64,000 nucleotides of DNA from Apostichopus japonicus (lineage: Eukaryota > Echinodermata > Holothuroidea > Aspidochirotida > Stichopodidae), in the NCBI RefSeq assembly GCF_037975245.1, contig NC_092562.1, forward strand, positions 26,796,054 through 26,860,053. Reading direction: 5' to 3'. Below, in pieces: positions 770-63,891 of this stretch. The stretch's first letter is position 1, and each line of letters starts with the position of its first letter. The notes beneath the pieces are model-generated. The model was not told the DNA's origin. It ran no database searches and worked only from the letters and a program-made list of their open reading frames with translations. Position numbers and translations under genes: made by a program.

Positions 770-1143
770 ATGTTCATTGCTTGCAATTATTGCAATATCA
801 TATAATTAAAAATTGCAACTGATATGACTAGCTATTAATTACACTTAATTGTACACACCTTCATAGAAATTCAAATGAACTTTAAATTAAAAGTATCAAC
901 AACATTACCAAATGCAGTATTTAGGTTATGTGTACATCAGTTGTATTATCACCAGATATCGATTAGGCCTACTATACAGCTGACTTCAGAACAACAATCC
1001 ATGTCCAACTGTAGACATTGAGGAGAAAATTACTCATTCTCTAATGGTTTTATAGTTTTCATTGTATAAAGCAATATACCAGGTTCACGTCTGATGAAAC
1101 GTTATCTGTGTTTTCTTTACTACTTTCCCATTTGGGCCTCTTG

Positions 1144-1458
1144 ATCTGCCTGTACTGCAATCTGCTCCAAAGAAGGGTTCTATAACTAATTCATCAGTCA
1201 CCATCAGCTGGTCAGCCTGGGATGAAGAAACTGAAGATGGGGACCCCCCTGTCATTGGGTATACACCTTACTACAAGCTGGCATCAGAACAGGATTGGTC
1301 TATCCAGGATACGTCTACCTCTATCAAGGCCCTTAACTTCACATTCACGGCCCTCACACCGGAGGAAAGGTACTCATTCAGTGTAGCAGCAGTAAGGGAA
1401 GGAGAGATGGGAGAAGGTCCAAGGAGTCCAATGCTGAATGCTACTACCATTTGTACAG
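1144..1458 (+). pseudogene. Gene A FN3 exon with destroyed 3' splice site
   Basis: Open 315-nt FN3 exon, phase 1 to 1, encoding a domain with ITWSAWDE-like and VREGEMGEG-type FN3 strands. It is about 96% identical to the gene B exon 47289-47603. In gene B the acceptor reads CCTCTAG; here it reads CCTCTTG, so the AG is gone and no other AG lies close upstream. The donor (CAG/GTATTT) is kept. Because the exon is symmetric in phase, skipping it would keep the reading frame. Probably not used in the mRNA. Confidence 0.7.
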
Positions 1459-30365: not shown

Positions 30366-30441
30366 ATGACTTACAAAGTGCAGGTCATTGCTGTGACTAC
30401 GTTGCTGCTGTGGCAAACACTCCTCAGTTATGGACAAAATG
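30366..30441 (+). CDS. Gene B exon 1 (coding): signal peptide
   Basis: It encodes MTYKVQVIAVTTLLLWQTLL then SYGQN, a classic signal peptide: short charged start, Leu/Val/Ala/Thr core, polar end. It ends in phase 1 before GTAATG. The ATG at 30366 is the only one in frame before the hydrophobic core. Confidence 0.8.
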
Positions 30442-33400: not shown

Positions 33401-36400
33401 GAATTTATCACTCAGCCACTTGGCTCTCTGGTTTGTAAGTGAGGTTGTTTGTAATTATATATTGTTATATTATGGTTATATTATGGTTATATTATGATTC
33501 AGAGCAAATTGTTTTTATGCCATAATATTTATTGGTTTACTAGTTTCTTTGTGACCCTGACCCCCAATAATTCCAACACAGGTGGGAAATATCCTAGGAA
33601 ATTTGATTGCCTCATGTTATAATACAAAAAATTGTTTAAATGTAACAAGAGGATAGTATAAAGTTAAATATAAGAGCATACATCTGTTTTGTTTGCAAGA
33701 ATCTAATTGTATTCTTTTCTTTTCAATGACAGTTAACATGTTCTCTCTCAATAGAGCCAGTAAAGATGACTTTCCTCGGAGTAAAGCCTTTTGAGTCTGA
33801 AAATACTAAAACACACTATCAGTGTCACATTAGCGAATCCGATGTTATTGCAGCAACTGCCCATGTAGAGTCTTTCAGGACAGTTTGGACAAGGAATGAT
33901 GCTAATGAAAATGTAGATCCACCAGCTCCAGCCTGGAATGCTGGTGGTGCTTATAAACATTGGAGGGTAACATTGGACAATAATGGAAATAATGACGCCT
34001 TTGGGGTGTTTGGATGTGAAGCTGCATTAAATGGAAAGATCACTACATCAATCTCCGGGATATTTATGAGATCAGATGGTGAGTTACTCACAGCTGTAGT
34101 TATTGGCCTGTGTTATTGGCCTGTCATACATTATATCATTATATAATAATACAACGTTATCACAGGTGGTATGATAATAATATGTGGACGTTTTACTGCA
34201 GCGTGTTTAGAATAGATTACATAATATGAGCATAACACATTACAAGTCTCCTGTTATATTGCATATATTGCATATATTGCATATTTACAAATGTATTCCT
34301 GACAAGAACATTTTTTGGGGGAACAATATTCAAGCTGGGTTAAGCAAAAGTGGTTGAAGTGATTACATAAAACATTATAGTGCAATTAAGGGTAGGCATT
34401 GGTACTGCTAATAAAACAATCTGGACGATTGTTGCACTATACTTTCAACATGGCTTTAATTGCAATGCAGTCATGTGGATGAGGATAATGACCGTGTAAA
34501 TGTCAACTTCAATATGTAACAAGACGACATTTGGTTGAAATGCAAAGCAAATGACAAAACGTTACATGCTTCTTTGCACAATTTGCATCAACTTTATCTT
34601 GGACCCTTTAATGCGATTCCATACTTGACACTTGATTCCTTTGTAGCATCAGCCTGTTAATATCCAGGAGAATGCAAATTGTAAAAATACAGCTAATTTT
34701 GTGTCATACCATTAAACCGTTCTTCTAGAGTTTTACTGGATGTGGTTGCTGTAGCATTAAGTTATTTGAGGCATTTATGTTGACATACATGTATTACCAG
34801 AAGTGCTGAAAAATATTGTTCTTACAATATTTTTGTTAAGAACTTGTTAAATGTTTGATTTAGTATTTAATACCATATAGATTTTACACAGGCCAATATA
34901 TATAACTCATGTATATATTGTTACAATGTCCTTGATTTCAGCCGATATTGTACCCAGTGATGAGTTGGTCTCATTAACTGTCAATGCGGGTGATACAGAT
35001 GTAAGCATTGGTATGAAGAGCACCGGATCGAAGGATGTTACAGACTTCAGATGGTTGAAGGATGATGTAAAGAAGAGTGCTTTTAATGGAGATGATAGTT
35101 TGGTCATCAGTGGAGCAGTTGAGGTAGATGATGCTGGTGTCTATGAGTGTCATATCCAAGGCCAGAGGATTAATGCAACACAAGGTCTAAAACTGTTGAT
35201 AGTGAGAGGTTTGTAAATCACTTACATATTTCAGATATGAATTACTTAATAGCCATTTACTAAACACATCTTTGTTTAAGAGACATTCGTTATCATAATG
35301 TGTTAAAGCCCAACAGGATTGTGGTTCATGACACCATAACAATCTCATATTAATAAAATATAGGATATTCTGTAAGGTCATTTGACTATCACAGCTCTAT
35401 GTCTTGCGACTAGATTAATGGTTGTTTCAATTTGTGAACTATTTTTAGCAGATAAATCCTTCCTTTCCCCATTATGAAGATCGCGAGTGGTGATGTTTTC
35501 ATGGAAGAAGTAATTCAAAGCTTAAGTTTCCTTGTATAACATTGCATGTTATATTGCTGTATCCTTGGAATGTGGTTGATTTGAAATGTTGACACAAAGT
35601 GTTGATCCTCACTTCATCACTATTGTAAGAAAGCACAGAATATATATGGACATTGAAATCTAATTACACTCACTGCCACACCATTTAGTCTGACAATGAG
35701 AGTGTTACAAGCTTAATACCATCTTGCAAAAACGCCAAACTCTGAACATTTGTGTTCTATGAGATTTACTAGAATTCAAAAACGTTAACATTCTGAAAAT
35801 CAGTGTTTTGCACAGTATGCTTTTTCCCTGATAAAATGTCAAAAGTCTGAGGTAATGTATCTGTGCCAAACTGCAATAATCTGAAAATTTACTATTTTGA
35901 AAAGATTTACTAAGTGTATGAACTGTAATAATCTGAAAATTGCAGTTTTGTAGAAATTTGCTTATTGTGTAATAAGGTACAAGTATAAAACTTGCCGTTT
36001 CACACACTTGCCAAGATCTTGACAAACATCTACAATCCGGCACTTGAAACAGAAATATTACTTTGTGTCGTAACATCCACAAAATGTATTTTGCCATTCA
36101 CAGATTTTCTCTTTTGTATTGCCATAATGACATTAACTAACATGCTGTTGCCAGATGCATCTATAAAATGTCACCAAGTTTTAAAAACATTGTACTTCTA
36201 CATTATTTTTTAGATGTTGGTTGTTACTTCCAGATGCAAAAAAATCCAGCACTTTCGTTAAACTATGAACTTTAGTCATCAGATTACACTCTATTGGCCA
36301 ATAATCAACTTTATAGATCACCTTAAACGGGTATCTAATTTAAATAATATAAAACGTCTGACAATATCTATAGAGTTAATTAAAACATTTTATTCACTAA

Positions 36401-39400
36401 TTTGAAATCCTATGAAGAATTTCTGTTATCTGAGATAGATTACTGTACCTCCGGTTTGAATGGTGTTTTTATGAACATCCTTCACAAAGTTAAATTGTTA
36501 CAGTCCAAAATGTGACAGGTGAATGCCGCAGTTACAGAAATTACTTCTAATTAAATATGGACTAATTGGAATTAGTTACATTTATTTATGAACATCAGAT
36601 AGGTCTTTCTTTCATCTGTAGTTTTTCTAGGGGAATTTCCTTTATCAATATAAATGTTTTGTGTTGAATAGGCATCCCAAGTAATAAAGAGAAGCAATTG
36701 TCTCAATTTTGTAAATTTCAAAGCAAGTGTGAGATCAAGGAGAGCGTTCTTGAGAAACTTGTGCATTGCTTAAAGAGAGGATATGATCAAAATGTGAAGG
36801 CGCAACTATTATACAAACAAATGATAACGGTCTGTATTTCAGACTGTTTTTTGTTTCCAAATTCCTACTTTTGTCACTGTGGTATGTAAGTGATCACACC
36901 TGGATCAGCCAAGCCCATTGAGACCAGATTAGAGATCGTCTGGATACAAGAAGTTGCTACATGTACAGTTAAGTGTACAAAACTTGTTCCTGGCTGGTAC
37001 ATTGTGATCCAAAATGTGAAATTGAGCTGCATATATCATAATTTATATCTTTGCATGATCTTTTCATAACACCAGCTTGTCCAGCTCAACGATGGGGTCC
37101 AGATACTTGTGATGGTATATGTGATAACTGCTATAACGGAGGCATTTGTGATGAGACTAGTGGAAAATGCATTTGTGCCCCTGGGTTCAAAGGAGCAAAT
37201 TGCGAAGAAGGTAACACTTTTCTCCTTGTTTAATTGAAAGCAAAGGTATACCTGACATACCTTAATGACAGATAGAGATTCTGCATAATGCACTTTGCAA
37301 ATCATCAAAGGAAAAAAAAAATTATTGAACTTTCACAGGTAATCCATTTCGCTTCTCATGCTAAAGATATGATGTTGATAAAGAGCAGGAAGCAATTGCT
37401 CAAGTCTTCAGTTTTAAAGCTTAGAACTTGTATCTTGCGTGTAAAGGTATGATGTTGATAATAAAAACAATAAAAACCAACAACAACTATCATATCTGCA
37501 GACTAAAGGCATTTCTGAAATAGGGACTTTTAGGCCTTACTTGCACATCAGTGTGTCCAGAAAGTTGAAAATCCAATCCAGATTATATACTTGTAAGTTT
37601 AATAATTGCAGGATACTTACAGGTAGTATTAATTTACCTAGAGAGTAGCAAGAATGGTTTATATGCAATCCTATTTTGTAGACAGGACCTTACTGTTATG
37701 ATGATGATGGTGGTGGTGGTGGTGGTGGTGGTGGTGGTTTGGTGGTGGTGGTGGTGGTTATTATTATCATTATATCAACATCTATAACATTAACATACAT
37801 ACCACAATTGCAATACCTCAACATAATCATATACCCTTGGTAGTAACATGACCTGTTGGTGATTGTGAGATAACATCAGTAAAATCAGCAAGACTCGTTC
37901 AATCAAGTTACCATGAACAAAATGCCAATTGAATTCAGTTATTGCTGGGCAACATACTTGTGATTAGGCTGCATATGGTTTCACAGATCCTCAAATATGT
38001 TTTTTTTTCAGTAAAATACATTAAAGCAGGGTTTAGTTTTGACCGGTCAAAACCTGTTTTGACCACTAAGCGGTTTAAACCTGGTTTAAACCAGTCAAAA
38101 CTAGGTTTAAACGGGTCAAAACTCTAAAATAAATTGGAAGCTCCCGACAAAGTTCTGCAGATGGTCTTGGGTAGTGTGGAGTATAATGCATACTATTGGA
38201 GTGATCATAATATCTGTTCTAAGGTATTCTCCCATTTGCTTCTCTTCCCAAGGATCAGTATGTAATTATATACAAAAATGTGAAGCTGATGAATGTGTCA
38301 CATGTATGTTCTGACTAGGCTTTGCCTCAACTTTAATGTTCTTATGAGTTACACCGTACTAGGCCAGGCCTACAGTACTACTCTAGATATTTGTTCTCTC
38401 AACTAAAAGACGGACTGCAAGCAAATATCCTCATATATCAACAAGGTTGTGTAATAGATTTGTGTTTTACTTGGCTGCAATATATCACCTGAGTATGCCT
38501 ATTAATCCATATCTAGGAATAATTCATCATCCTTACTTATATGGGGCATGGGGTTTACTTATGGTCTCGGTGTCGGACTCACTCAGTCTCGCACCAACTG
38601 CATTTTCAAGAACAGAAAAACTAATCTCAGATATCTGTTGGGTGTGAACATTTTAGTTCTTAAGTTGTTTATGTGTAATTATTAACACACTCAGTATTGC
38701 ACTACATCATACAATTATCAGCATGGTTGCAATTGCAAGAAATCACCTTTATATATATTGTTGGTGTCGGACGTACATTTTTTCGGTGTCGGACGTACCC
38801 GTGCAAAATATTTGAACACCAACCAACAAATGTAGTGGGAACATGCAAAATGTAATTCACATGGTGATAATTAGTATCAGACATATTAGTTGTATCTTTT
38901 CACTAATTGAATGATGCAAGCAAGTAGCTCAATTGGGAACAAGTGTTGAGAAACAGATTGGCATTCTTTGGAGATGTACTGTACGTCCGACACCAATTGT
39001 CCTTTTTGAACAAATTTAATTTTTTTGCCAATACAGGTAGGGGGTTTACTATTAACAGAATTGCCCTGTACTGATAAGTCAACATAAACCTTGAAATGCC
39101 TTTTTGAGATGTAGTAAATTAGTTGTTCCAAGTTCAATTGCAGTTTAAGTTTACACTGTAAATTGTAGTTAGGAAGTTTCATGGAAATTAATATATGTGT
39201 CAGTAGGCCTACTCTTTAATAATATTGTATATCTGTGTTCCACATGTGTCCTTTGAACAATGCTTGATAGCTGCCTACTTGGCTTAGATACTTGCTGTAG
39301 ATGAAAATCTCTTATTGGGTTGACAAACATGTCAGTTTATGCACAAAATTAGTTTTGACCACTGGGCGGTTTAAACCGCCTTGGTAAAAACTGGCCAACC

Positions 39401-42400
39401 CTGCATTAAAGGGTGTATGTATCCTATTTTGTCATTTTTAAATTATGTTTTGAATGTGTTGATGACACTGAGGTCAACTTTACTAGCCTCATTATAGGAC
39501 ATTGTTGAATACACTTGAAACATTCAAAAGTATGATAATAAACCTTTGCACTTTTTGTTTCTGATATAATGTTTTCAAAGATTTTAGTGTTCTGCACATG
39601 ACTAAAAACATACAGCGTCTGTGTTGACTGAAAAACAATAAAGTTGCATATCCATGACTTTGAGATGCTTCTCATGTGACAATGTTGGAATTTTAATTAA
39701 TTTATATTTTTCTGTTAGGTTGTGGAGGAAACAGATATGGAGACACCTGTGAAAAGCAATGTTCTACCACTGACGAACCTGAAAGATGCAGTAAATACCT
39801 TTTCTGCCTCGCCCATCCATATGGCTGTAGCTGTAACACAGGATGGAAGGGGTTGGACTGTCTTACCGGTAGAGCTTTACTTTAATATTTCATTATCTGT
39901 TCCTATTCCATCATGCTAGTGTAAAGGTTTTATCATTCCTAATGTATAGTATATTTCAGGTATGTATCCATGCTTTCGGAGTTTAATTCTGGTTTGGATA
40001 CTGGCTTTGCCAGATGCAGCCAAAAATCCATGATTGGATATTGGAAATTGACATTTTCTTTTGGGAAAGACCGGTAGTGTGGGACAAGGGTGGTGGAAGT
40101 GGTAGTGATGTAATAGTTTAGCGAAGTGATCTATTTCCAATAATTTTGTACAAAGAATAACTATTGTTAAAACCTTCTTATAAGGGCTACAATGTAAAAC
40201 CCCACCAATATAGTCTGGCATTCTTTAAGGCAAATATCCTGTCAACAAGACATTTTAGGATAGCCTACTGCACAGTGCACTGCATGATGCCACCACTGAA
40301 GAGAACCACAACTGGAAATTAAATTAGAAATACAAATATATGTAATACGTCCCAGCCCTTGAATGGTGACTGACCATGAACATGTTGCCAATGATTTAAA
40401 AAGTCTAGCATTTCATTACAAAAATCTTGAGGTAGTACCTCAATTTCTATGACAAAGGCTCTAAATTTCCTTCCAAAGTTATGTTTCATGAGGAAAATAA
40501 TTGGTAATACATTTTTGATGTTTAATTGTAAATGTTGAACTAGTTGAAGTCATAACATTTTTTGGTGAGAGCTGAAACTGGTCAAACAAAAACTTGAATT
40601 TAGATGTTATCTCAATAGGTAAAATTTCAGTATTGGTTTTGAAGCTTCTAAATTTACAAAAAACCTACTTCCAAAACTGGGTATTTTTTTTTTTTGGGGG
40701 GGGGGGCGGAATGGTGCACGATTTATTTTACATTAAATTAGTTAAATACATTGATCTTAATAGTATGTAGTCAAATTAATGTTGTTCATAGTTTGTCATA
40801 GGTGGGGTGGGTGGGGTGGTCTACATGCTGTAAGGACACACCCGACACACACAGAGAACAGAGTAACTACTGTAAATCTGAAAATTTTGTTAGTTTAGTT
40901 TAGTAGAGAAAATGCATCAGGAGGGACACTTAAGTCCCCATCATGGACCCTATAGAGAGAAAAAAAACTGAAGACACAAACACTCAGACCTGATTACAAT
41001 GCTTAAAGTGCTTGTCCAAAGCAAGTACAACTTTCTCAGTCAAACCGTTCCACTCATTCACAACCCTATTAGAAAAAAAAGTTATGCCGAATATTAATCC
41101 TACTATGTGACTTTTGGAGTTTAAGACAATGACCTCTGGTACAACTACTGTTAGAAAACATGAAAAAGTTGGTTATGGATAAATTGAACCAAAGTAAAAC
41201 ATGAATGGTGGTATAAATCAGTAGCATGTGCTATTAGGATTACAGTAAGAACTGAGGATATGTGTAATCAAACAAATCCAGTTGCATTTGATGAAATTAC
41301 ACATGTATTCAGTTTGTACTGTAATCCTTAAAACACATGCTACCAAGTTATCATATCCGCACGATTCAGTTTTCACTGTGGTACAGAACTTTAAAATTTT
41401 GAAATCTCTGTATGAATCGATTGAAGGACATCAAAAATGCACAGTACAAGAGGATATGTCTTTACTTGTCACAATTGAAAAGAAAATCTTAAAAAGCAAA
41501 ATGATATTCCATCTGTTATCTCTTGACTCCCCAACTTGACTTGAATGTAAGGATGCCACTCTGGTTCTGCACTGATAGTTATATAATTAATTACTTAAGC
41601 AGAGGGTGCTTAAAAACTAGATAACATGTGCTAAAAACTTTAAAATTGGTCAAACTATTTAAATGAATGCCCAATTTACATAACAAAGGCACTATATAAA
41701 TGTAAAAAAATCTATTATATTGTTATTTAATAAATGTGTTCCACATCCCTTTCTTATATTGGAAGAGTCCAGATACACACATATGTAGGTAGACATTAGA
41801 TGTTTCCATTACAGAGAAATAGGTAGGAAGACTCTACCAGTACATGTAATCAATTGTATTATTTTAGACCTAATTTTTGTGTATTTTACAGTTCACTGTA
41901 CAGTTTGACAACTAATCTGTATCTTTCCATTTTAGCCAAAGTACAAAAAAGCAACAGAAGGGAGGGGGGTGGGGTGGTCATCTCAATATTTACTCTAGCC
42001 ACATTTTGGAGGATTTTTCATGTTGTTCAATCTGCAAGCACTAGCACATGTGGTCATGGCCCTACAGTGAAGCAATCTTATACACCACCCTTGGTAAGAC
42101 AAGAAAACAATGAAACATTTTTAATCTGATCAAGTCTATCAACAGCAGAAACAGTTGTACTGTAAAATACAGTAGTCACCACAACTGTACAGTTCTTGCA
42201 TGATACAGCTTATTGTATGTATGTAAATTAAATGGTAGTTATACTGTGCATCCAAATTACATGCAACAGTTGTCTGTCGGTTGCTCAACTGTCCCTGCAC
42301 ATATTCATTATAAGACAAAGGTTGCATCCCCATTGAAATTGTACCAATAATGTTGATTTTAAAATTTAGTAAACATTTGTCTGCAGGTCCCAACACAGAG

Positions 42401-52589: not shown

Positions 52590-52665
<76 letters not shown>

Positions 52666-54952
52666 CATTCATATTTTGGTCAATTTATCATACAGGTAAT
52701 ATATTTGTGATACCTGAGATAATGAACAGGTAAATATTACCAGTGATTTTCTGTACCTTGTTTTCTGCATCTTCAGTACTACCAGCTTTGTCCTCAGCAC
52801 CTGAACTTGGGGCAAGCAGCTGTGATAGAGTGAATATAACATGGAGAAGGTGGCAAGAAGGATTGGATGTCGGAACTCCACCAATCTGTGGTTATATCCC
52901 TTACCATAAGTTAACTGCTAATTTATCATGGACTGCCAATGATATGGTACCTCACCAAGGTGAAAATTTGGAACTGTGGTTTGAATTTGTAAACTTGACT
53001 GAAGTTTCCAATTACACGTTTGCAATTGCTGTTGTTCGTGAAGGACTTGAAGGAAAAGGAGACATGGGTACCAACCTTTTTCATGAAACACCGCCATGCA
53101 AGACAGGTGAAGTGGATATGTTAACTGTAGTAATGGCAGTACGATAAGTCATCTGCCCCCCCCCCAAAAAAAAAAGGTAAACTAGGTAGAATTTGTACAT
53201 GTTATGGGATCAGGGTAGCAAAAAGTGGTCTCAAAGAATAATGGGGATGACATGGGCACATACCCCACACATATGTTCATTTTACTTTACCTCACACTTC
53301 CATGGGTCTGGTGATGTCAGGATAAACAACATGCCCCCCACCCTACCCCCCCCCCCCCCTCTCGTTCCAAACATCAACATAAATGATGTACTAAGATGAC
53401 TAAGAGCCTTTGAAGGTGCGATTCATTTAATAGTTTCCAAGTTTAGCTCAGAGATGACATACCAATTAACCCCTAGCTTTTGTCCCACTTTGAAAGAAGG
53501 GACATAATTGACAATCTAAGGAAATTAAATTAAACCCCCTACACAAACAGCACCCAGCTTAATTAATTCTTCCCCTGATATATGTATGCAGATATCATAC
53601 CACAATTACTTCCTCCATTTTCTGACTGTTAACATTTCAGGCAGATGTACATTTCTCTAATTGTGGTACTGTACCTACATAAGCTTGTGTTCAACACTTG
53701 AGCGTAATTGGGCATTGTAACTCACCATTCGCCGCATCCTTCCTTAATTCCTTTAGAAGTCATAGTACAATGTCTTGTTGATATTGATGTGTAGCTAGTA
53801 GATTATTGGTGTAACATGCAATTGTACTAGCTTACTCTAATCATCTTCTACCTTGCCTTAAGTTTGAATTTTCTTAATCTTGTACATGTTATTCTTCTTC
53901 CTTTATTTCTTGCTCTAAATTGTCTTTCTTCTATTATGATATGCAGGTCCGTCTGCAGGTTTAATTGTTGGATCCACAATTGGAGCATTCCTTTTGATTG
54001 TGCTGCTGGTACTACTGGTTATATATATGTAAGTTTTAAACATAATATTTCATAGTATTGTTTTATGTATAGTAGAAGGGTCATGTTATTTGGAAACTCT
54101 ACAGACCAGCTATATGCTGCTTATTCACTTCTAACACATTCTTTGATATGGTTTCTTCAACGTAAAACAACATTTTAGTAACTGTTTTCTCATTGTAGGG
54201 ATCCACCTAATTTGTTCATTTGTCACTAAGGACTGTCTAAGGATTAGGTTTGTTTGATAAGCATGATCATGATATAGACACACAATAGAACTGACATATG
54301 AGAATAAATGACAACTGATATATAACATGAGAATGCATGACGTTTAGGATAGCTGTGTTGTACCCTTTTTGTATCTTACCTTGCACCATTCAAATCATTC
54401 ATTTTCCCATTTAGCTGCCAACTCACTGGTAACTTGTTACCTCTAGGTGGTCTTTACTGTTCTACCTTAGGGTAAACAGCCATCCTCTCTTACCAACACG
54501 ATCGTTCTTAAGTAACACACAAACATTCACAATGCATTATTTCATCATAAGCTTTTCAAAGAGAGATAAGAAAAAAAGAGTAGCAATATACTTTCTGTTA
54601 TCGAATTTAAACAGTCTGTGTATGTGATAGTCTAAAAATGTACAATGTGGCCCAGGTAAGTTATGTCATTGGATATGGGTAGGGCAACCATAATGAGGGA
54701 CTACTTTAATTACTGATGATGTTACATATTTCCAAACTAAAGGTAAAAATAACTATGATCATACTTTGTAGTCGCTTAATTGTCCCATGACAGAATCTCT
54801 ACTGTTTTAAATCTGAGCCACTGAATGGGCTTATCTATTTTCCCTTCTATGTTACACAATCAAAAACTTACCAAATGGTTTCTTATTCTTTCTTTTCTCT
54901 TTATCATGTTATTTGTTTGCATTTTTAGAATGGCTATACCTACATTGCAAAC

Positions 54953-55024
<72 letters not shown>

Positions 55025-58000
55025 ATAGAATTTTGTATATGTGCAGTAACTTGAGAATTGTATGTGAAGGCTAAATCATGCACTCACAAAGAGTTGTTGT
55101 TTGGATTATTTTAGGCGGAGGAAGAGCAAGAGTGACAAAGGTATGAATGACTCACAGGCTACACGGACAAAGTTTGGTATGTTCATTTATACATGAAATC
55201 ACATTTCTCTCTCTAATTATCTCTTGGAAAAATTTTCCGACATTTGTTTACTCTGATAGACTCTGCTACTCTGTTACACGAATTATGTGTCAACATTACT
55301 TGTTGGGTTTTCTCGATAAACCAATAACCTAATTTCCAGATGGTTTTTGCGGAGACTTAATACAACCTGTGTTTAGGAGAATGATCAACAATTGAGTTTT
55401 AATTAGAATACTTTATTGATTTCGATGCTGTAACGGTAATCATATAAAGCTCACTCTTTCTTAATTCCCTTCACCGCATGCCTTCTTTCATAAGACGGCA
55501 TGTTCTCAGTTATGCCTTTCTTAAATTTCTACATTTGTAAATGTAAATTGCCTTTTAAAGCAATAGACATTATTATGTTTACAGTACATGGTGCACTTTG
55601 GAAACTGGCTTGCCCTAATTAGCTAGTCTAATAACGGTAGAAAATATAGATTAGATGATTGCAAAACCAATACAGTTCGTCTTGAGAATTTGAAAATAAT
55701 TCTTAATGTATACCACTTATCTTTATAATTGCTCTTTGATAATTTACTGCTATTAATACATTGTTTTATACTTATGATATCCAATTGGGAAATTTATTGT
55801 TTGAAGGTTTAATTTTGAAGGTTTGGATATAACTGTTGAAGAAAGCAATAATGGTGTATTTATATTGAGAGCGAATTTAAATTTATATATTTAATTACAG
55901 TCAAATCTACTTCCATGCATTCACCATTCTCCATATGGCCCCATCGACATCAATATGATTGTATTTTATGACTTATTAGCAATTTTAAAGATTTCAGCTT
56001 TTTGAATGAAGACACATGATTACTTGTTGAAATGTATTTTCCAACATTTGACAGGAACTTCATCTTCAGCATTTAAACCAGATGTAGAACCTGTTGCAGT
56101 CGTAACTGAAGCGGATGGAGACGATCTTTACATCAACATTGTAAAACCTGTCCCGGTCCTTGTCACCAATCTTGAAACTTACATGAAAAACTGTGAAGAA
56201 AGCAAGTCCAACACCTTAGAGCAACAATTTCAGGTTGGTCGCATTTTAAAGTATTATTTTGAGTGGAAAGATAAGCTAGATCTTGGTTTAAAAAGGTTAC
56301 AACATTTACAAAATATCTGGTATGCTGATAATGTCGAAGAAGTAATGAAATTGATTTACATAAATAAGAGATTCCTTGAAATCATGGGAAAATCCTGTTC
56401 ATCTGCTGTCCTTTATATTTCCAGATACATCAATTTTTATACAATCTCAAATACAATCTAAAAGATCTTCAGAATGAAGATCAAATTTAGCAAGCCTAAA
56501 ATATCATCTGCTGAATAGTACTAAATTTTCAAAAGCTCACAAGCTTTCAAAAGTACTTTCCCTGAGGCATTGATACTACAAATGAGTCCCAGTCATTGAT
56601 GAGTGCAATAGATAGTTCAATATGGCGGTGTGGATAAATACTTTTAGAGCGGCAGTAAACTATTTGTTGAAATTTGTGCACGGTTGACCATTACCTGACT
56701 ACTTGGGAGTTAACACCAATGACTTTAAAGAGCTATTATCTGAGCATATTTTCCAGCAATCTCATGAAATTTTCTTGATGGTGAGGAGGGACAGTGTTTA
56801 AATTGACATAGCTGTGACATACAGCCCATCTGATGCACAATTCAACTTATCTTCTTTAAATTACTAATGACTATTTCATTCAGCTTTCAAGAAAGATATA
56901 AGTAGCTTGATCAGATCATGTAGATGGCAATGTCACTAAGAATCTACCAAAGTAAACAGAGAGCAAAAATACAAAAGAAGTAATTATAAGTTTATTATAC
57001 TAGTATGTAGTGACACAATATTTATCAGATATGCTAAGTGGCCTCAAGTTCTAAAAACTTACTGCAAAATGTTTAGCATTGCTGAGCAGCGTTAAATATT
57101 TATTTGCATGGCATTTATGATTGTTTGGTCTAAATCTTTGTTATCTCAAGTGATCGCTAGTGATTTTAGCGTTGGTGCCAATAAATATCATGTTTCTATT
57201 TGCTTCACTCGAACAGGATCAAGATATGAAATCTGAGTTTTTTTCTTCAATAAACATATATGGTAAAATTAAAAGATCATTAGGACAACTAGGAATCGAA
57301 AGTTTGGAAGTGCTTTGAGTAAAAGTTGTTTTTACAATATGTTATTACTTTATCTGGCCTTTGTTTCTTTGTTTTTATTAATCAGGCTTACTAATATCGT
57401 GGTTAATTTTTCGCACATTAATTACAAATCTTGACACAAATAATGCAAATGATGTTCTGTTTTGAAATAGAATTGCATCAGTTATATTTTTTTTTCAATT
57501 ATCAATAAATTAGTTTCTCAGTTTGTTGAGCTAAGCCTAGCATCCTTCTGAACACTAAGTCAAGGTTTCTATTTTGAAAATAATGTTATATGATTGATGG
57601 TTATGTCTTGTAATCTGTCAAACTGCCGACTCCTTTACAGGGCTTTAACAAAGGTAAGCAGTTTGCCAGTGAAGTTGGAGAGGAAGACGACAACAGGCAA
57701 AAGAACAGATTCAAGAACATGATTGCTTGTAAGTTTTAACTCTTATAGTTGATAGAATGTCTATGGAATTTAATCTATAGGCAAGAGTGGCAATATCTCT
57801 TCCACATTGCTTGTGTCATGTAGCAGTAATGTAGTAGACGTAGTAGTCATAAAGTAGTAGTGTGGTAGTAATGTGATAGTAATGTGGTAGTAATATAGTA
57901 GTAATGTAGAATAATGTAGAAGTATATAGTAGTGATGTGGTAGTAGTGCGGTAGTAATGTAGTAGTAATGTAGAAGTAATGTAAGAGTGATGTGGTAGTA

Positions 58001-61000
58001 GTGTGCTAGTAATGTAGAAGTATATAGTAGTGATTTGGTAGTAGTGTGGTATTAATGTGGTAGTAGTGTGTTAGTAATGTAGAAGTAATGTAGTAGTAAT
58101 GCAGTAGCAATGTAGAATAATGTAGAAGTATATAGTAGTGATGTGGTAGTAGTGTGGTAGAAATGTAGTAGTAATGTAGAAGTAATGTAAGAGTAATGTG
58201 GTAGTAGTGTGTTAGTAATGTAGAAGTATATAGTAGTGATGCGGTAGTAGTGTGTTAGTAATGTAGAAATAATGCAGTAGTAATGTAGAAGTAATGTAGT
58301 AGTAATCTATTAGTAATGTAGCTATATCCTAAACATATCACTTAAAGCATGTGCTTCCATGCCTCTTTTTTTGTCTTACAAGTAACTACTTATTTCCTGC
58401 TCCCAAGTTTATTCACCCCTCAATATTCACGCTTAACCACAGATGACAACCTGTTGCATCTCATGTGTATATACGAAAGTGGTTAGTCATAGCCCTCTGC
58501 TACTGTATGTGCCTTAGTAATTATCAATAAAAGAGTCTGTGACAACGAGTTTATGTCATAGAGTGGTTAGCCCCCCCCCCCCCCTTCCCTCTTGAAGGAA
58601 GTTGTAATGACCTAAATACTGTTTTTTTTTTTTGGTATGAAGAAGGACTACCATTCCAGACTTCAGAGAGTCAGCCCTTCAGAGAAAACCCACAACCAAA
58701 ACCTTATATTCTTCTGCTGTTGTAGAAATTTAGTAGTATACCTATTTTGATGATACTAATGTTACATGAGATATTTTTACTGCTGGTAGTACTTGTGGAG
58801 TGTGATCATAATTTATTGCTTTTCTTCAATAAATCAGATGACCACTCGAGAGTAATTTTGGAGAAGCTGGAAGGAGACCCTCATTCAGACTATTACAATG
58901 CAAACTATATTAAGGTAGGTAGATTTTAAGAAATATTCATGAAAGCCTGGCATGTAGACTACAAAGAGAACCTCATTCAGAGTATTACAATGCAAAATAC
59001 ATTGAGGTAAGTAGATTTTAAGAAAATATTTATGAAAGCCTGTCATGTAGGCTACAAGGAAAACCTCATTCAGACTATTGCAATGCAAAATTCATTGAGG
59101 TAAGTAGATTTTAAGAAATATTCATTAAAGCCTGGCGTGTAGGCTAAGGGAGAATCTCATTCAGATTAAAATGCAAACTACATTGAGGTTAGTAGATTTT
59201 AAGAAATATTCATGAAATACTGGCAGGTAGGCTACAAAGAGAACCTCATTCAGACTATTACAATGCAAACTACATTGAGGTAAGTATATTTTAAGATATT
59301 ATTCATGAAAGCCTGGCATGTAGACTACAAGAAGAACCGCATTCAGAGTATTACAATGCAAACTACATTAAGGTTAGGTAGATTTTAAGAAATATTAATT
59401 AAAGCCTGACATGTAGGCTACAAGGATGCGGTGAGATGAAAGTTTGCTGTATCTTTACATAAATTTACATCATATTACCCTAAGATATGTTCCTCAACTC
59501 TATCATTCTCTGCTGATGTTCATTATATTTTCTCCGTTGTGTACTTTGCAGGGGCAGTGTGGTTTGAGACATTGTGATAATTGTTTTTGCGAATTGTCCT
59601 TGCCTAGCAGAGCATTAACCCAGTAACAGGGACACTAATGTCAGACATAGAGGACAATAATGTTAGACATAGTGTCCCTTTCAGCATTAGTGTCCATTCC
59701 ACTGTAGACCTCTCTCCACTGATCTTAATTCTTACACACAGTAATTATGTAGACTGGCCGGAGCAGAGTCCAATAGGTCAAACAGAGCAGAGTAAACATT
59801 TGGAGAATGATAACTTAGTTATAATAATATATGGTGGTATTTATTCTCTTCTTATTGCAAACACTTAATAGACTTAGTGTATCTTGAAGTAAAAAAAAAT
59901 CTGCTTTGGTGAACTGTTAAAACTGGTTCTTTTAATGAGTTTATTTCACCTCTAATCAATCAACTCACAAGGCTTAATTCCAAGGCTAACAGTAAATGAA
60001 AAGATACATTTCTACTTTTTTTACATTATTTATTTTTCATAGAATGCTGAAGAGTTTAACGCATTCATAGCTTGCCAAGGTAATATTCTTTATTTTTATT
60101 ATTTTCATGCATATTGAAACCCTAGTTACATGTTTGTCCATAGGACTGTTCCAGTACTGTATTACCTGAAACGGTTAACATGCAAGCTTGCAATCTACAA
60201 ACATGACACTAGAATTAGTGTGAGTTTAAGGTTTTGTAGACTATCACTTACAGCATCTACATTAACAATAGCAAATGCTAATCTGTTTTAATAGCATCAA
60301 ATGTTTAGATGATAAGGTTCTGTCATAACATTCAATGCCAAATTTTCTGTGTCACACTTATCCCCAGCAACATTGTGAATTACATGCATGTTAAATTTTA
60401 AACAATAGCAAAGCATTCAATTGGGGATCATAAGTCACCAAGCATATAATTGTAGGCTATTAAAATATATTTTATTATATTTACTCTTTTATCCAAATGT
60501 AAAGATTGGGATAGTGAAATATCTTGATTCTGTTTTGACAGGACCAAATACTGCATCCATTGACGACTTCTGGAGAATGGTAATACAGGAGAAAGTGTTA
60601 AACATAGTCATGCTGACAAACCTGATTGAGAAAGGAAAGGTAACAATTGGGTCTAATATATTTCACTTGTTCGATCCTTAAAACAAAGCAAGAACATTAT
60701 GAATTGTTAGCAGTAATGTAGGCTGACCATATACTGTTTTTCTGAAGGTGCAAACTACCACCTTCCATCAAATCAAAGATGACAGTGATGTTTTTATTAG
60801 CTATTTTTCTGTAACTCTCTGTAAATGTTCCCTCATCCTCCAAATTTGCGCCAATCTCTTTGAGTGTGCCCACTAATGTATGATTGTTTTTTTCTTTTCT
60901 GTTAACCATATGAAAATGTAGGTGTTTTCTCTTAAAAGATTATTGTTCAAAAGATCTTTTAGTTTAAATGAAATTTAGATTCTGAGGACAAGATGGACTT

Positions 61001-63891
61001 TGAAAATTATTTTCAACAGTAATAACAGGTCTGACTGGAAGAATTTACTGAAAAGAAAGCTTTTGTCACTTGAACAGACAGAAGGACTAGGAATTGTTTT
61101 GCTAACAGAAAGTGTTTATTTATAGGACTCTCAAACAACCCTTACACAGCAGCTCCGAGGCACATACTTGGTTCACTACTTTAGTGCTTAAAATTTGGGG
61201 CCATTTAAGGTAGCTTTAGGTTCAAGTTTTCTTATGCTACTTCAAGCATTGCCAATATTTGCATTAAAAAAATCCATGTTTTGAATTACAAGATAGTCCC
61301 AGTTGAAGACTTGATGACTTATTGCATCATCCAATGGGAATATTTTTAAGATCTAGGTGTTTCTAAATTTCGAGCATCATTAATTCATCTCTGTCATCCG
61401 ATCCCCTCAGCCCAGAACAACAACCCCCTCCCCTTCATTTTGTTCAAATTTGTCAAGAAATTCTACAGATAGGACAATATGAACTCTCTTGCAGGAACGT
61501 TGCAAGCAGTATTGGCCAAAAGCTGTAGGTGACACAAAGAAGTTTGCCACTTGTGAAGTGAAATGGGAGTCGACAGAAAATTTTGCAGACTACGAAATTA
61601 GATCATTGACTGTTACATTCGTAAGTAAATTGAGTGATAAAAAAGTATTCATTATATTAAACTAAATGTTAACAGTGTCCATATCAATATGAATTACAAC
61701 GTCAATGCTGTGAAGGGAATTTATTTTGGAAGTATTCTGCAATATATTTCTTAAGACCAAAAATACATGTTGAATTTTAGCTACTCTTGAATCTTAATGC
61801 GATACACTTGCGTATAAATTTTTCTCGCCAACACAAGTTTTTGTTTTCCATCCTGAGTTTCAGTTTAATTTCTATTTCACTTAAAAAGTAATTGTGCAAT
61901 TTGAAAATTCCAGTAATATATATGACAACTGATTGCAATTGCTAGGATCTTCTGTCCGAGGTGGGACTGTTTAATTTTGTTTTTATTTACTTTTAATCAG
62001 AGCATATAATAATGTCAGATAAAACACCACTTAAAAAGTTGTAAAGAGAAATTACTAAGTGAACTCTGTGCTTGCAAAGGTGTATTGCAATTTTGTTAAT
62101 ATTGTCTGCGGTGTGTTTCTTTACATCATTATATTAAATTTAAATTCCTTGTTTTCATAGGGAAATGAACAAAGGAAAGTCAGAAACTGGCACTACCGAA
62201 CCTGGCCAGACATGGATGTACCACAGCAGGCCACTCCATTGATTGGGTTTGCTAAGAAAGTGAAACTACAACAGTCTGCTTCAACTGGTCCCCTAGTGGT
62301 TCACTGCAGGTGATTATTTCTCATTGGAATCGTCTGCATTCAACTCTAATTCACTGCTTATATATAAATCACAGATCAAATACAACAGTGAATAACTTTC
62401 TCTGGGTACCAATTCCAACTTCAGAAATAGAACATCAAAATTGATTTCCAGTATCCAATCGTATAGCTACATCCAAATTTTTTCAAATTCATGCAAGATT
62501 TTTTGAGCTCAAATTCATTCAAAAGGTTGGTTTCATAGCAAACTTTTACTTAGGGAAGCATATTCAGCAATAACACAAAGAAGAGATCCGGTATAGTATT
62601 TCAAGTGTTATAGTGTGAGAGAATAGTAGTTCGTTGAATTATTTGCTCAATATAACCAAAATGTCTTTGTTGTAAAGCATTCTGCTTGAATATGAACATT
62701 TAACATTCTCAGTAAAGAATGAACAATTATGCAGTTTACATGATCTATAAAAATACAGACAAAAAGCTGTGGAATAGGTTCCCCTTCCCATCCACACCCT
62801 TCAGTGACAGAAAAGACAAAATCTTTTGTCATATGTATAGTTTTTCACATGTGAGTGCTACTTTGTAACGAGTGGAGGGAAACTTATCAATTTAAGACAT
62901 CGTCTTCATCATATAACTGCTACCACTGAATTTTCTCCTTCTTTTATAAGCTCCTTTTCCTATTTTACTATTTGTGGGAGAGACCATGAGATAAAACTCA
63001 TGATCTGGACCCACTGTACTTGTGGAGTTTGATCATAAATATTTAGAAGATGTATACCATTTTAGTAATTTGGGAGAGAGGGGGATTCTATTCTAGGTGA
63101 AAAAAATTGATGCTGTTACTTTCGTATCTGTGCATCAGCATGGCGGTTTTTGGCAGGGTAGGTGATATCCAAATTCATTTTTTATATTATTATTTTAGTG
63201 CTGGTGTGGGGAGGACAGGTACATTCATTGCTCTGAGTACTCTGATGGACACCATCCACAACAAGGACAGAATTGATATCTACGGATTTGTGGAGAAAAT
63301 GAGAGAAAACAGAATTATGATGGTTCAAACTGCTGTGAGTTCTATATTCATTTCAATTCAGTCTTGTGGTTAGTTAAGTTGACATTCTGTGTTGTTGCGT
63401 TGAATAGTCACTGGTTCTGATTATTCCGATAAACTCTGATAATGATTGGTTCAATTTATACTGAGGACATATTTCTAACTCAGCATTCCTCGTTTTGATT
63501 GGATGAGTTTTCTGCGTTTGTATCTCACAAGCTTATTGATTTATGAAAAAGGTTATGTATCGAGAAAAACACACATGTAATTTTCAGATCCTTTGTTAAT
63601 TGAATTTTTTATTATCAAATAAATAATTTCCAGTATTTGTGACAATAATAGCCTCACATTTCTTAACAAACTACTATAAATCAGTAAACTGTGATCTCAT
63701 AAATACTACTAGTTAAATGTGTATCTAAACATATACTCCCTTCATTATTATTTTGCAAACAGTTGCAGTTTAAGTTTTTGCACACCTGTCTGCTGGAAGT
63801 TTACTTGACCGGTGAGACAGAGATAACACTAGGGAACATATCTTCCTTTGATGCGGATGAAAAATTACAACAGCTGGACAAGGAATTCAAG
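30366..63891 (+). CDS. Gene B: receptor tyrosine phosphatase with Tie-like ectodomain (5' part, runs off right edge)
   Basis: 23 coding exons, all phase-consistent and open, give about 1216 residues: 30366-30441, 33755-34078, 34942-35208, 37076-37210, 39719-39868, 43762-43899, 45085-45228, 45787-46080, 47289-47603, 51139-51215, 52171-52405, 52777-53106, 53947-54028, 55115-55176, 56055-56233, 57641-57728, 58838-58914, 60043-60079, 60542-60639, 61495-61620, 62161-62309, 63199-63334, 63763-63891. Order: signal peptide, N-terminal domain, Ig, EGF x4, Ig, FN3 x3, membrane helix, juxtamembrane, D1 PTP. The enzyme should remove phosphate from tyrosines of membrane-associated substrates. Every D1 catalytic motif is intact: KNRF, YDHSRV, QGP, WPD, HCSAGVGRTG, QTALQF. 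The final residues (DKEFK) look like the linker into a D2 domain beyond the window. The Ig-EGF block resembles Tie kinases rather than known vertebrate RPTPs. Confidence 0.88.
30442..33754. other. Gene B intron 1, nothing recognised
   Basis: 3.3 kb AT-rich intron between signal-peptide exon and first domain exon. First introns often hold enhancers, but no motif cluster was seen. A short TTATATTATGG repeat lies at 33467-33500, near the intron's 3' end. Confidence 0.5.
33755..34078 (+). CDS. Gene B exon: N-terminal extracellular domain (Ig-like, diverged)
   Basis: 324 nt, phase 1 to 1, between CAATAG and GTGAGT. It encodes about 108 residues with two Cys (YQCHISESD and GVFGCEAAL), a Trp between them (FRTVWTRND) and a strand ending in IFMRSD. 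The Cys-Trp-Cys spacing suggests a diverged Ig domain, matching the position of Ig1 in Tie receptors. Confidence 0.75.
34942..35208 (+). CDS. Gene B exon: Ig domain
   Basis: 267 nt, phase 1 to 1, between TTTCAG and GTTTGT. It encodes FRWLKDD, SLVISGAVEVDDAGVYEC and LKLLIVR. The DAGVYEC signature is Ig. The run into the next exon (IVR then CPAQRWGP) mirrors the Ig2-EGF1 junction of Tie receptors. Confidence 0.85.
35209..37075. other. Gene B intron, only degenerate repeats
   Basis: Contains loosely repeated AATAATCTGAAAAT segments at about 35780-35960. No exon seen. Confidence 0.45.
37076..37210 (+). CDS. Gene B exon: EGF-like module 1
   Basis: 135 nt, phase 1 to 1, between ACCAG and GTAACA. 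It encodes CPAQRWGPDTCDGICDNCYN, then GGICDETSGKCICAPGFKG and ANCEE. The eight-Cys laminin/Tie-type pattern with WGP and CxPGFxGxxC is clear. Confidence 0.9.
37706..37758 (+). repeat. (TGG)n trinucleotide repeat
   Basis: About 50 bp of TGG/GGT, interrupted once by TTT, in a gene B intron. Confidence 0.95.
38027..39403 (+). mobile_element. hAT-like non-autonomous DNA transposon 3
   Basis: Ends CAGGGTTTAGTTTTGACC and its inverted partner GGCCAACCCTG, flanked by a perfect 8-bp duplication CATTAAAG (38019-38026, 39404-39411). Both ends carry inverted GACCACT-GCGGTTTAAACC blocks. Internally the motif GGTGTCGGACGTAC occurs twice direct (38762, 38785) and once inverted (38983). No transposase. Confidence 0.88.
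39719..39868 (+). CDS. Gene B exon: EGF-like module 2
   Basis: 150 nt, phase 1 to 1, between CTGTTAG and GTAGAG. It encodes CGGNRYGDTCEKQCS to [20 protein letters not shown]. The FCLxxPYGCSCxTGWKGLxC segment is the hallmark of the second EGF module of Tie receptors. Confidence 0.9.
40885..41180 (-). mobile_element. LINE 3' fragment
   Basis: On the minus strand a frame reads HSRINIRHNFFSNRVVNEWN, then GLTEKVV, the common C-terminal signature (R-IR-FFS-RV-WN-LP-VV) of many invertebrate LINE ORF2 proteins. It is followed by a 3' UTR and a TAAAC-repeat tail at about 40888-40903. Confidence 0.7.
41200..41395. mobile_element. Palindromic (fold-back) element, copy 2
   Basis: Inverted arms GTAGCATGTGCTATTAGGAT and the matching complement near 41320-41345, with ATATGTGTAAT / ATTACACATG near the centre. 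Related to 25450-25720; in a gene B intron. Confidence 0.7.
42976..43339 (+). mobile_element. Small hAT-like MITE
   Basis: 364 bp, TIRs CAAGGGCGTAGGAA / TTCCTACGCCACTG, flanked by near-identical 8-mers (AATATAAT / TATATAAT). The internal AGGGGAGGGGGACACCCC core and GCATCTAAGG segment are shared with 21047-21492. Confidence 0.75.
43762..43899 (+). CDS. Gene B exon: EGF-like module 3
   Basis: 138 nt, phase 1 to 1, between CTATCAG and GTAACA. It encodes CDPGTYGASCLQTCDKCQSD to CDIGWTGNSCQ, the same laminin-type EGF layout. Confidence 0.88.
44220..44540. repeat. Diverged AT-rich minisatellite-like stretch
   Basis: Loose repeats of a TATACTTTTATAAATAT / AAATACCTA unit in a gene B intron. Confidence 0.4.
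45085..45228 (+). CDS. Gene B exon: EGF-like module 4
   Basis: 144 nt, phase 1 to 1, between TTTGCAG and GTAAGT. It encodes CEGARFGEKCAEDCHCSKEY, then CNQVTGECSEHCNSEW. A fourth module; vertebrate Tie receptors have three. Confidence 0.85.
45787..46080 (+). CDS. Gene B exon: Ig-like domain after the EGF block
   Basis: 294 nt, phase 1 to 1, between CATGTAG and GTGAGT. It has VTVPVTCTAAKG and DGQTLYCQLRKDG, the Cys pair of an Ig fold without a clear core Trp, ending in beta strand YNITIYVF. Same place as the third Ig domain of Tie. Confidence 0.8.
47289..47603 (+). CDS. Gene B exon: FN3 domain 1
   Basis: 315 nt, phase 1 to 1, between CCTCTAG and GTATTT. A full FN3: [51 protein letters not shown]. 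Functional counterpart of the dead exon 1144-1458. Confidence 0.88.
48505..48830 (+). repeat. 104-bp tandem repeats, 5' arm of the fold-back-like element
   Basis: About three units; GCCAGGACTTTGAAAGTCC starts at 48517, 48621 and (GCCAGGATTTTG) 48725. Each unit is itself a short palindrome. Confidence 0.85.
49033..49985 (+). repeat. Direct duplication inside the fold-back-like element
   Basis: Unit 1 49033-49509 and unit 2 49510-49985 are about 95% identical, each beginning TTGTTCTTCCTGG and containing small AAAGGATATTATTTAC repeats. Confidence 0.85.
50395..50840 (+). repeat. Tandem CCTGGCTTTTCC repeats, 3' arm
   Basis: Several 60-80 bp units of ACCTGGCTTTTCCGGGGTAA with ACTCACACA spacers; complementary in motif to the 5' arm. 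Confidence 0.8.
51139..51215 (+). CDS. Gene B exon: FN3 domain 2, first half
   Basis: 77 nt, phase 1 to 0, between TTTTCAG and GTATGT. It encodes [20 protein letters not shown] and EITWQ. Confidence 0.85.
52171..52405 (+). CDS. Gene B exon: FN3 domain 2, second half
   Basis: 235 nt, phase 0 to 1, between TTGAAAAG and GTGAGT. It encodes [20 protein letters not shown] to [18 protein letters not shown]. The intron sits inside the FN3 fold after the ITWQ strand. Confidence 0.85.
52591..52660. repeat. (TA)n microsatellite
   Basis: 70 bp of TA in the gene B intron before FN3 domain 3. Confidence 0.95.
52777..53106 (+). CDS. Gene B exon: FN3 domain 3, membrane-proximal
   Basis: 330 nt, phase 1 to 1, between CTTCAG and GTGAAG. 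It has VNITWRRWQEG, TPPICGYIPYHK, NYTFAIAVVREGLEGKGD. N-glycosylation sequons NIT, NLS, NLT and NYT are visible. Confidence 0.88.
53947..54028 (+). CDS. Gene B exon: transmembrane helix
   Basis: 82 nt, phase 1 to 2, between ATGCAG and GTAAGT. It encodes GPSAGLIVGSTIGAF then LLIVLLVLLVIY, a 22-25 residue hydrophobic helix followed in the next exon by Arg/Lys. Confidence 0.9.
54957..55022. repeat. (TA)n microsatellite
   Basis: Pure TA, about 66 bp, between the membrane and juxtamembrane exons of gene B. Confidence 0.95.
55115..55176 (+). CDS. Gene B exon: stop-transfer/juxtamembrane, two in-frame donors
   Basis: It starts after ATTTTAG with RRKSKSDK. Two donors keep phase 1: one after 55140 (AAAG/GTATGA) and one after 55176 (TTTG/GTATGT), differing by 12 codons (GMNDSQATRTKF). 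The longer form is nearer the length of the gene A counterpart and has the better donor, so it is taken here; both may be used. Confidence 0.7.
56055..56233 (+). CDS. Gene B exon: juxtamembrane and PTP lead-in
   Basis: 179 nt, phase 1 to 0, between GACAG and GTTGGT. It encodes an acidic stretch with DDLYINIVKP (a YxN docking motif), then VLVTNLETYMKNCEESK to LEQQFQ, the helix before PTP D1. Confidence 0.8.
57641..57728 (+). CDS. Gene B exon: PTP D1, KNRF motif
   Basis: 88 nt, phase 0 to 1, between TTTACAG and GTAAGT. It encodes GFNKGKQFASEVGEEDDNRQ then KNRFKNMIA, the opening motif of the catalytic domain. Confidence 0.85.
57835..58325 (+). repeat. GTAGTAATGTAGAA minisatellite
   Basis: About 490 bp of imperfect 9-14 bp units (GTAGTAATGTAGAAGTAATG) with higher-order periodicity (TATATAGTAGTGATGTGGTA recurs), in a gene B intron. 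Confidence 0.9.
58838..58914 (+). CDS. Gene B exon: PTP D1, phosphotyrosine loop
   Basis: 77 nt, phase 1 to 0, between AATCAG and GTAGGT. With the split Tyr codon it reads YDHSRVILEKLEG, then PHSDYYNANYIK, the canonical phosphotyrosine-recognition loop. The last 40 nt or so are repeated downstream in a tandem array (58915-59430). Confidence 0.88.
58915..59430 (+). repeat. 92-bp tandem array derived from a PTP exon-intron junction
   Basis: Junctions at 58915, 59007, 59100, 59188, 59280 and 59373: each unit holds about 40 nt matching the end of exon 58838-58914 (PHSDYYNANYI), its own GT donor, and about 50 nt of intron (AGATTTTAAGAAATATTCAT). Units 1, 2, 4 and 5 keep the reading frame; unit 3 has a small deletion. 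Confidence 0.9.
60043..60079 (+). CDS. Gene B exon: PTP D1 mini-exon
   Basis: 37 nt, phase 0 to 1, between TTCATAG and GTAATA. It encodes NAEEFNAFIACQ and joins the next exon to make FIACQGP, the TQGP-type motif. Confidence 0.8.
60542..60639 (+). CDS. Gene B exon: PTP D1, DFWRMV motif
   Basis: 98 nt, phase 1 to 0, between TGACAG and GTAACA. It encodes PNTASIDDFWRMVIQEKVLN, then IVMLTNLIEKGK, the conserved core helix and strand of D1. Confidence 0.88.
61495..61620 (+). CDS. Gene B exon: PTP D1, KQYWP region
   Basis: 126 nt, phase 0 to 0, between TTGCAG and GTAAGT. It encodes ERCKQYWPKAVGDTKKF to DYEIRSLTVTF, the C-KYWP motif and following strands. Confidence 0.88.
62161..62309 (+). CDS. Gene B exon: PTP D1, WPD loop
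   Basis: 149 nt, phase 0 to 2, between TTCATAG and GTGATT. It encodes RNWHYRTWPDMDVP to GPLVVHC. The catalytic WPD Asp and the nucleophile Cys are present. Confidence 0.9.
63199..63334 (+). CDS. Gene B exon: PTP D1, P-loop
   Basis: 136 nt, phase 2 to 0, between ATTTTAG and GTGAGT. It completes VHCSAGVGRTGTFIALSTLM and ends in MMVQTA, giving an intact P-loop and start of the Q-loop. Confidence 0.92.
63763..63891 (+). CDS. Gene B exon: PTP D1 C-terminus and linker toward D2
   Basis: 129 nt, phase 0 to 0, between AAACAG and GTTAGT. It encodes LQFKFLHTCLLEVYLTGETE, then a linker ending QQLDKEFK. The EFK ending before a donor mimics the entry into another PTP domain, so a D2 probably follows outside the window. 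Confidence 0.85.

Follow-up and report, generated by a model that had tools for sequence, protein, structure and literature searches.

Analysis of the window, a stretch of 64,000 nucleotides of Apostichopus japonicus DNA, led to a gene (gene B) which, judged from its domains, encodes a receptor-type protein tyrosine phosphatase (PTP) with an ectodomain outside the known groups of receptor-type PTPs (RPTPs). Its product would carry, in this order, a signal peptide, an Ig1-like N-terminal domain, Ig2, three EGF modules of the Tie type (EGF1-3), a fourth EGF module, Ig3, three FN3 domains, a membrane helix and a PTP domain (D1). We estimate the probability of this anatomy, with gene B as a single gene, at roughly 80%. 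The features of a receptor-type PTP (signal peptide, one membrane helix and cytoplasmic PTP domain) are all present in gene B, and it is placed among these phosphatases and not among the Tie receptors because the tyrosine kinase domain is missing and a PTP domain stands in its place.

Gene B was rebuilt from the DNA as 23 exons at 30366-63891 (+ strand), with GT-AG at every junction, a closed frame and a length of 1216 aa. The ends, the domain order and the length were given beforehand, the exon list was not; the order and the 1216 residues claimed by an earlier note on this DNA were both recovered in the rebuild. The exons are the following:

30366..30441, + strand: exon 1, signal peptide (ATG and hydrophobic stretch, GT donor, phase 1)
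33755..34078, + strand: exon 2, N-terminal domain in the position of Tie Ig1 (it ends level with Tie2 Ig1 in the alignment)
34942..35208, + strand: exon 3, Ig2 (Ig motif DAGVYEC; runs collinear to Ig2 of Tie2 when the ectodomain is aligned)
37076..37210, + strand: exon 4, EGF1, Tie type (gene model and Tie2 alignment)
39719..39868, + strand: exon 5, EGF2, Tie type (gene model and Tie2 alignment; at least 145 genome matches at E<=1)
43762..43899, + strand: exon 6, EGF3, Tie type (gene model and Tie2 alignment)
45085..45228, + strand: exon 7, a fourth EGF-like unit not covered by the Tie2 match (cysteine pattern; found in paralogs too)
45787..46080, + strand: exon 8, Ig3 (gene model; paralogs)
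47289..47603, + strand: exon 9, FN3a (gene model; Ig3-FN3 search against PDB)
51139..51215, + strand: exon 10, first part of FN3b (gene model; Pfam fn3)
52171..52405, + strand: exon 11, second part of FN3b, weak acceptor (gene model; Pfam fn3)
52777..53106, + strand: exon 12, FN3c (gene model)
53947..54028, + strand: exon 13, transmembrane helix (AGLIVGSTIGAFLLIVLLVLLVIY)
55115..55176, + strand: exon 14, basic juxtamembrane part (phases fit on both sides)
56055..56233, + strand: exon 15, juxtamembrane part and start of the PTP region (RPTP alignment)
57641..57728, + strand: exon 16, PTP D1, KNRF loop (RPTP alignment)
58838..58914, + strand: exon 17, PTP D1, DHSRV...DYYNANYIK (RPTP alignment)
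60043..60079, + strand: exon 18, PTP D1, FIACQ mini-exon (gene model)
60542..60639, + strand: exon 19, PTP D1, GPNTASIDDFWRMV (RPTP alignment)
61495..61620, + strand: exon 20, PTP D1 (RPTP alignment)
62161..62309, + strand: exon 21, PTP D1, WPD loop and catalytic Cys, VVHC (RPTP alignment)
63199..63334, + strand: exon 22, PTP D1, SAGVGRTG P-loop and start of the Q-loop (RPTP alignment; at least 83 genome matches at E<=1e-3)
63763..63891, + strand: exon 23, end of PTP D1 (the gene continues into D2 beyond the window)

Weak splice sites are the acceptor of exon 11 (52171), whose pyrimidine tract is poor, and the donor that follows Ig2 and reads gtttgt. The junctions between ectodomain units are in phase 1 in 11 out of 11 cases, in agreement with the phase-1 introns claimed for the ectodomain boundaries, and since all of them share this phase, exon shuffling is indeed plausible for gene B, as had been proposed; the single intron within FN3b (51215/52171) is in phase 0. 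Pfam detected fn3 (E = 6e-14) and Y_phosphatase (residues 954-1185, E = 2e-76) in the model, and the only membrane helix is located after the third FN3 domain. Concerning exon 2, structure prediction from the single sequence gave a pLDDT of 43.5, which leaves the N-terminal fold without confirmation. An intron of gene B also bears a long low-complexity stretch on the minus strand (57770-58306) with repeats of the TTLLPHYYHI type.

Tie receptors follow the order Ig-Ig-EGF-EGF-EGF-Ig-FN3-FN3-FN3-TM, which gene B has in common with Tie2/TEK and Tie1, although it differs from both in the phosphatase that takes the place of the kinase in the cytoplasmic part, in one added EGF-like unit, and in Ig and FN3 parts that are not Tie-like one by one. 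When the ectodomain was searched against all PDB chain sequences, three Tie2 sequences ranked first (E = 1e-47 to 3.6e-45), with an alignment spanning the end of Ig1, Ig2 and EGF1-3. The Ig-to-EGF junction quoted in the earlier note (DAGVYEC...LLIVR, then CPAQRWGP) and the EGF2 motif are present and collinear with Tie2, while of the four EGF modules that it had listed, EGF1-3 lie within the Tie2 match and the fourth EGF-like unit is extra. Searched alone against the PDB chains, the four EGF-like units matched Tie2 with 113 bits (E = 1.9e-31), and the next EGF protein with 29 bits. Tie2 was absent at E<=10 from the PDB matches of Ig1 and Ig2 alone, and Ig3 with the FN3 domains scored higher with titin (92.6 bits), LAR (53) and DCC (41) than with the FN3 part of Tie2 (26). 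Because Ig1 and Ig2 miss Tie2 and Tie2 is not the preferred match of the Ig3-FN3 part, homology with Tie is established for the EGF block only, and the Tie label of gene B, as far as its sequence goes, rests on this block together with the number and order of the domains.

The cytoplasmic part resembles tandem-domain RPTPs. Specifically, D1 matches PTPRA, PTPRS, LAR and PTPRE in the PDB (whole-sequence E of 1e-115 to 1e-119), and the comparison of best matches that the earlier note had set as a test led, among PDB sequences only, to Tie2 for the ectodomain and to tandem-domain RPTPs for the cytoplasmic part. The WPD loop (TWPDMDVP), the P-loop (HCSAGVGRTG) and the Q-loop (MVQTALQF) of D1 are all intact, which bears out its description as an active-looking phosphatase, and D1 would presumably be catalytically active; its pTyr loop is KNRF, where D1 of PTPRA and PTPRS has KNRY. 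The end of the gene had been set at 63891, which proved incorrect: exons of a second PTP domain (D2) lie on the same strand within 9 kb past the window. This D2 is degenerate, with AWNEGSD where WPD is expected, and was read as separate exons, the P-loop exon being located farther out. Gene B is thereby like PTPRA/PTPRE and the LAR-type PTPRS/PTPRF in having one membrane helix, an active-looking D1 and a degenerate D2. Its head is another matter, as a review of RPTP ectodomains from 2024 does not contain the word 'EGF' in its main text (PMC10815196) and the ectodomain groups presented there are unlike the Tie-type head of gene B. According to the same review, VE-PTP (PTPRB) acts on Tie-2, a role similar to the one proposed for gene B, but its ectodomain consists of FN3 repeats only, without a Tie-like head (PMC10815196), and it is assigned to the R3 group with a single PTP domain (PMC5336234). 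A phosphatase with a Tie-type head was not found in the literature, the 2006 sea urchin phosphatase survey and the general protein databases lying outside the scope of the search, and gene B may have been annotated earlier.

The claim that the ectodomain and PTP exons belong to one gene is probably correct. A diverged paralog at C2:3.91-3.93 Mb, with 31-83% identity to gene B by exon and SAGVGRTG in its D1, matches the order of gene B on a single strand over the N-terminal domain, Ig2, EGF1-4, Ig3, FN3a, the second part of FN3b, D1 and D2, and its stretch between the N-terminal exon and the close of D1 measures approximately 13 kb; at this locus tblastn did not recover the signal peptide, FN3c, the membrane helix, two short exons and the part of FN3b that comes first. 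Because the exon order recurs in paralogs, the exons of gene B are considered as one gene. Elsewhere in the genome, EGF1 or EGF3 is also present in 24/30 EGF2 loci (3-kb regions), and a same-strand PTP exon is located downstream (<=60 kb and before the next EGF2) in 47 of 72 EGF2-like loci at a median distance of 21 kb, versus an opposite-strand one in 2/72. The other 25 loci have no such pairing, and two of them are followed by a kinase exon. For this pairing, all 72 EGF2 matches at E<1e-3 were set against a PTP list of 81 of the 83 P-loop exon matches (two near-tandem copies beside C2:12137502 were omitted), together with every C16 match (15) and 8 selected C2 matches from a separate PTP search, and against a kinase list of 40 chosen matches. 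It supersedes a first pairing on another 72 EGF2 rows, missing some loci, which had given 40/72 within 80 kb. Strand and distance are not independent proof here, because one-way arrays also result in same-strand PTP exons upstream within 60 kb (24/72). The opposite explanation, namely that a Tie-like gene and an RPTP gene with separate transcripts simply adjoin and that their join is an annotation artefact, is highly improbable. It can draw on the long introns (up to ~4 kb) and on gene B being known from genomic DNA alone, but the frame stays open through 23 exons, the diverged paralog keeps the same exon order, the downstream pairing is on the same strand, and the sole membrane helix of the model sits after the third FN3 domain; based on the first three of these, it was rejected.

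Gene B is a member of a large duplicated family located for the most part on chromosomes C2 and C16. Match counts in the genome are lower bounds throughout. Beyond the matches given above for exon 5, at least 33 EGF2 matches reach E<=5.1e-11, all of these on C2 and C16, and the P-loop exon has none on C16 among the matches listed. Four copies of this exon, at C2 26859250 (gene B), 27029651, 27286947 and 27567025, are 100% identical in protein over a 0.7 Mb span, which suggests recent duplication or gene conversion. PTP exons come after EGF2-like exons on C18 and C19 too, and the PTP behind a Tie-like head at C18:13.64-13.66 Mb has alanine instead of the P-loop arginine. EGF2 motifs very near to that of Tie2 were observed at C12:6997502 (FCLPDPYGCSCATGW), C2:2463982 and C2:2560666. 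The first of them has the most Tie2-like EGF2, and no kinase or PTP motif was found in the 20 kb read at this locus. Pattern scans led to the same outcome for the 20 kb downstream of C6:16379492, where the fourth EGF-like unit and Ig3 are present, and for the 10 kb lying 12 to 22 kb downstream of C2:4685104. GTDB genome contigs gave 14 pattern matches, with no relative among them.

Upstream of gene B, at 1-18.4 kb of the window, there is a paralog (gene A) in which one PTP domain, a degenerate one, was seen. The following parts of it were located:

1098..3823, + strand: gene A, FN3a (reading frame 1098-1466) and FN3b (3497-3823); exon ends not set
11592..18441, + strand: gene A, second FN3b/FN3c set, membrane helix and one degenerate PTP domain; approximate ends

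In the PTP domain of gene A, WPD is replaced by NNWPKSGD and the P-loop reads HC..GASRSG; a motif scan of gene A (1-18.4 kb) detected no D1. DNA blocks covering FN3a and FN3b are 84-93% identical between the two genes (1-3879 versus 46793-52498) and, by their likeness, are the product of a recent partial duplication or conversion. An EGF2 exon 96% identical to that of gene B is located about 10 kb upstream of the window, with EGF3, EGF4 and Ig3 between, and its position suggests that this head belongs with the gene A pseudophosphatase, two FN3 sets and a retroelement lying in between. Inside gene A, a 756-codon stop-to-stop frame at 5320-7587 is, judged by eye, non-LTR reverse transcriptase-like. 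At least 18 PTP exons of the gene A type were found in the genome with 81-100% identity, 3 on C2 and 15 on C16. The domain looks D2-derived, because the D2 exon of gene B is among the further matches of this search (57%) and the D1 counterpart is not. One C16 copy, read over the domain only, has WPK in common with gene A, and dN/dS between gene A and this copy is 0.29 over 218 codons, so that the two look like conserved pseudophosphatases and not like decaying genes. In the copies read, the sequences show similar heads with two main kinds of tail, one consisting of D1 and D2 with the D1 motifs intact, the other of a D2-type pseudophosphatase domain.

Concerning selection on the heads, pooled pN/pS was 0.27 for EGF1 (23 loci) and 0.28 for EGF2 (30 rows, 29 distinct loci), some of these loci carrying the same sequence in the exon concerned; both modules are under purifying selection. 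Smaller sets gave 0.37 for EGF3 (9 rows), 0.52 for EGF4 (8 rows) and 0.61 for Ig3 (2 rows). Between genes A and B, EGF3 has a ratio of 0.85, indicating little constraint, and Ig3 presents no constraint (dN 0.060, dS 0.046), with 13 nonsynonymous and 3 synonymous changes, which are too few for a claim of diversifying selection.

Kinases with Tie-like EGFs were also looked for in the genome. At C19:9.137-9.156 Mb, on the minus strand, EGF1-2-3, an FN3-like exon (by eye), a membrane helix and the start of a tyrosine kinase lie within 18 kb; Ig3 was not found in this interval. One kinase gene of the genome, at this one locus, follows Tie-like EGFs on the same strand. A less secure link is that of C19:8.78-8.84 Mb, where Ig2-EGF1-2-3 has a kinase 49 kb downstream. 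An exon of the latter kinase has at least 41 genome matches at E<=1e-8, and its best PDB match is an EGFR entry, followed by RET, with no Tie entry among the best 60 of 725 matches. Receptor tyrosine kinase exons akin to these C19 kinases form tandem arrays on C17, C18, C19 and C21. It has been reported that FREPs and tyrosine-protein kinase receptors are greatly expanded in A. japonicus (PMC5638244), in a paper whose main text does not contain the words 'phosphatase' and 'Tie'. Those receptors come from the same species as gene B but are kinases, whereas gene B is a phosphatase.

As a tentative working model, to which we give somewhat less than even odds, the head of gene B would share a partner with related receptors, D1 would damp signalling and the pseudophosphatases would compete. 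The head may bind a ligand or partner common to related receptors, and clustering would then bring D1 beside phosphorylated receptors or adaptors, where dephosphorylation could damp or reset signalling; pseudophosphatase copies with similar heads could be decoys or scaffolds competing for the same partners. A cell-cell recognition or immune receptor family is also conceivable, though here too we would rather doubt than assert it. The expansion would then represent diversified recognition, with the active and pseudophosphatase forms as inhibitory and competing members. This agrees with the many tandem copies on C2 and C16, with the two cytoplasmic kinds behind closely similar EGF2 modules (96% at the head locus of gene A), with selection that maintains the pseudophosphatase in the tested pair and with 13 nonsynonymous versus 3 synonymous changes in Ig3 of genes A and B. 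On the other hand, EGF1 and EGF2 are conserved and not diversified, and the Ig3 comparison covers two pairs only.

How much kinship with Tie should be read into the heads also has to be considered. The EGF1-2-3 block could be an old module of many invertebrate receptors, in which case 'Tie-derived' overstates the relationship; this is rather unlikely. A Tie signal found in the EGFs only, and Tie-like EGF2 at loci with no recognised cytoplasmic part (e.g., C12:6997502), are what such a module would leave, yet 84 bits separate Tie2 from the next EGF protein (in the small EGF sample of the PDB) and the remaining domains agree with Tie in number and order as well. The earlier note had gone further in the Tie direction, and gene B may oppose Tie kinases and read angiopoietin-type ligands. 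In its strict form, a phosphatase that recognizes angiopoietin-like (fibrinogen-domain) ligands via Ig2 and, like VE-PTP with Tie2, takes phosphate off Tie-type kinases, this is unlikely. Angiopoietin fibrinogen-like domains are reported to bind Ig2 of Tie2 (PMC8560823), and the expanded FREPs and kinase receptors of A. japonicus (PMC5638244) would suit such a role. The Tie layout with an active-looking D1, the presence in this genome of a kinase gene behind Tie-like EGFs and the abundance of fibrinogen-domain exons (2727 first-look candidates, 150 scored) point the same way. Against it stand Ig1 and Ig2, which alone have no detectable similarity with Tie2, a gap of two residues in the Tie2 alignment, in the stretch that we take to hold the Tie2 contact residues for angiopoietin, and the C19 kinase exon that is nearest to EGFR and RET. 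Given the Ig1 and Ig2 result, a Tie-derived Ig2 was rejected as proof of ligand sharing. Clustering of FREP genes with the receptors was looked for as well and not found; there is no sign of linkage between fibrinogen domains and receptors, because the fibrinogen-domain matches listed are mostly on C9, with 2 on C2, and this too speaks against the strict form.

Returning to the phosphatase with a Tie-type head as such, the ectodomains of receptor kinases and receptor phosphatases are usually taken as unrelated, meeting via separate partners. If the present reading is true, a receptor can change its sign in evolution and keep its head, with a Tie-type head borne by phosphatases at dozens of loci in active-looking and disabled forms and with Tie-like EGFs in a kinase gene of the same genome, and this raises the question of whether one ligand is common to opposite enzymes. 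The broadest picture, of a matched Tie-like-headed set in which active phosphatase arrays, pseudophosphatase arrays and kinases, together with co-expanded fibrinogen-domain ligands, would provide push-pull recognition in the immunity or regeneration of the sea cucumber, is speculative and quite improbable in full. A. japonicus is an echinoderm noted for regeneration and for its greatly expanded fibrinogen-domain proteins, and gene B and its relatives would offer a candidate receptor family in it.
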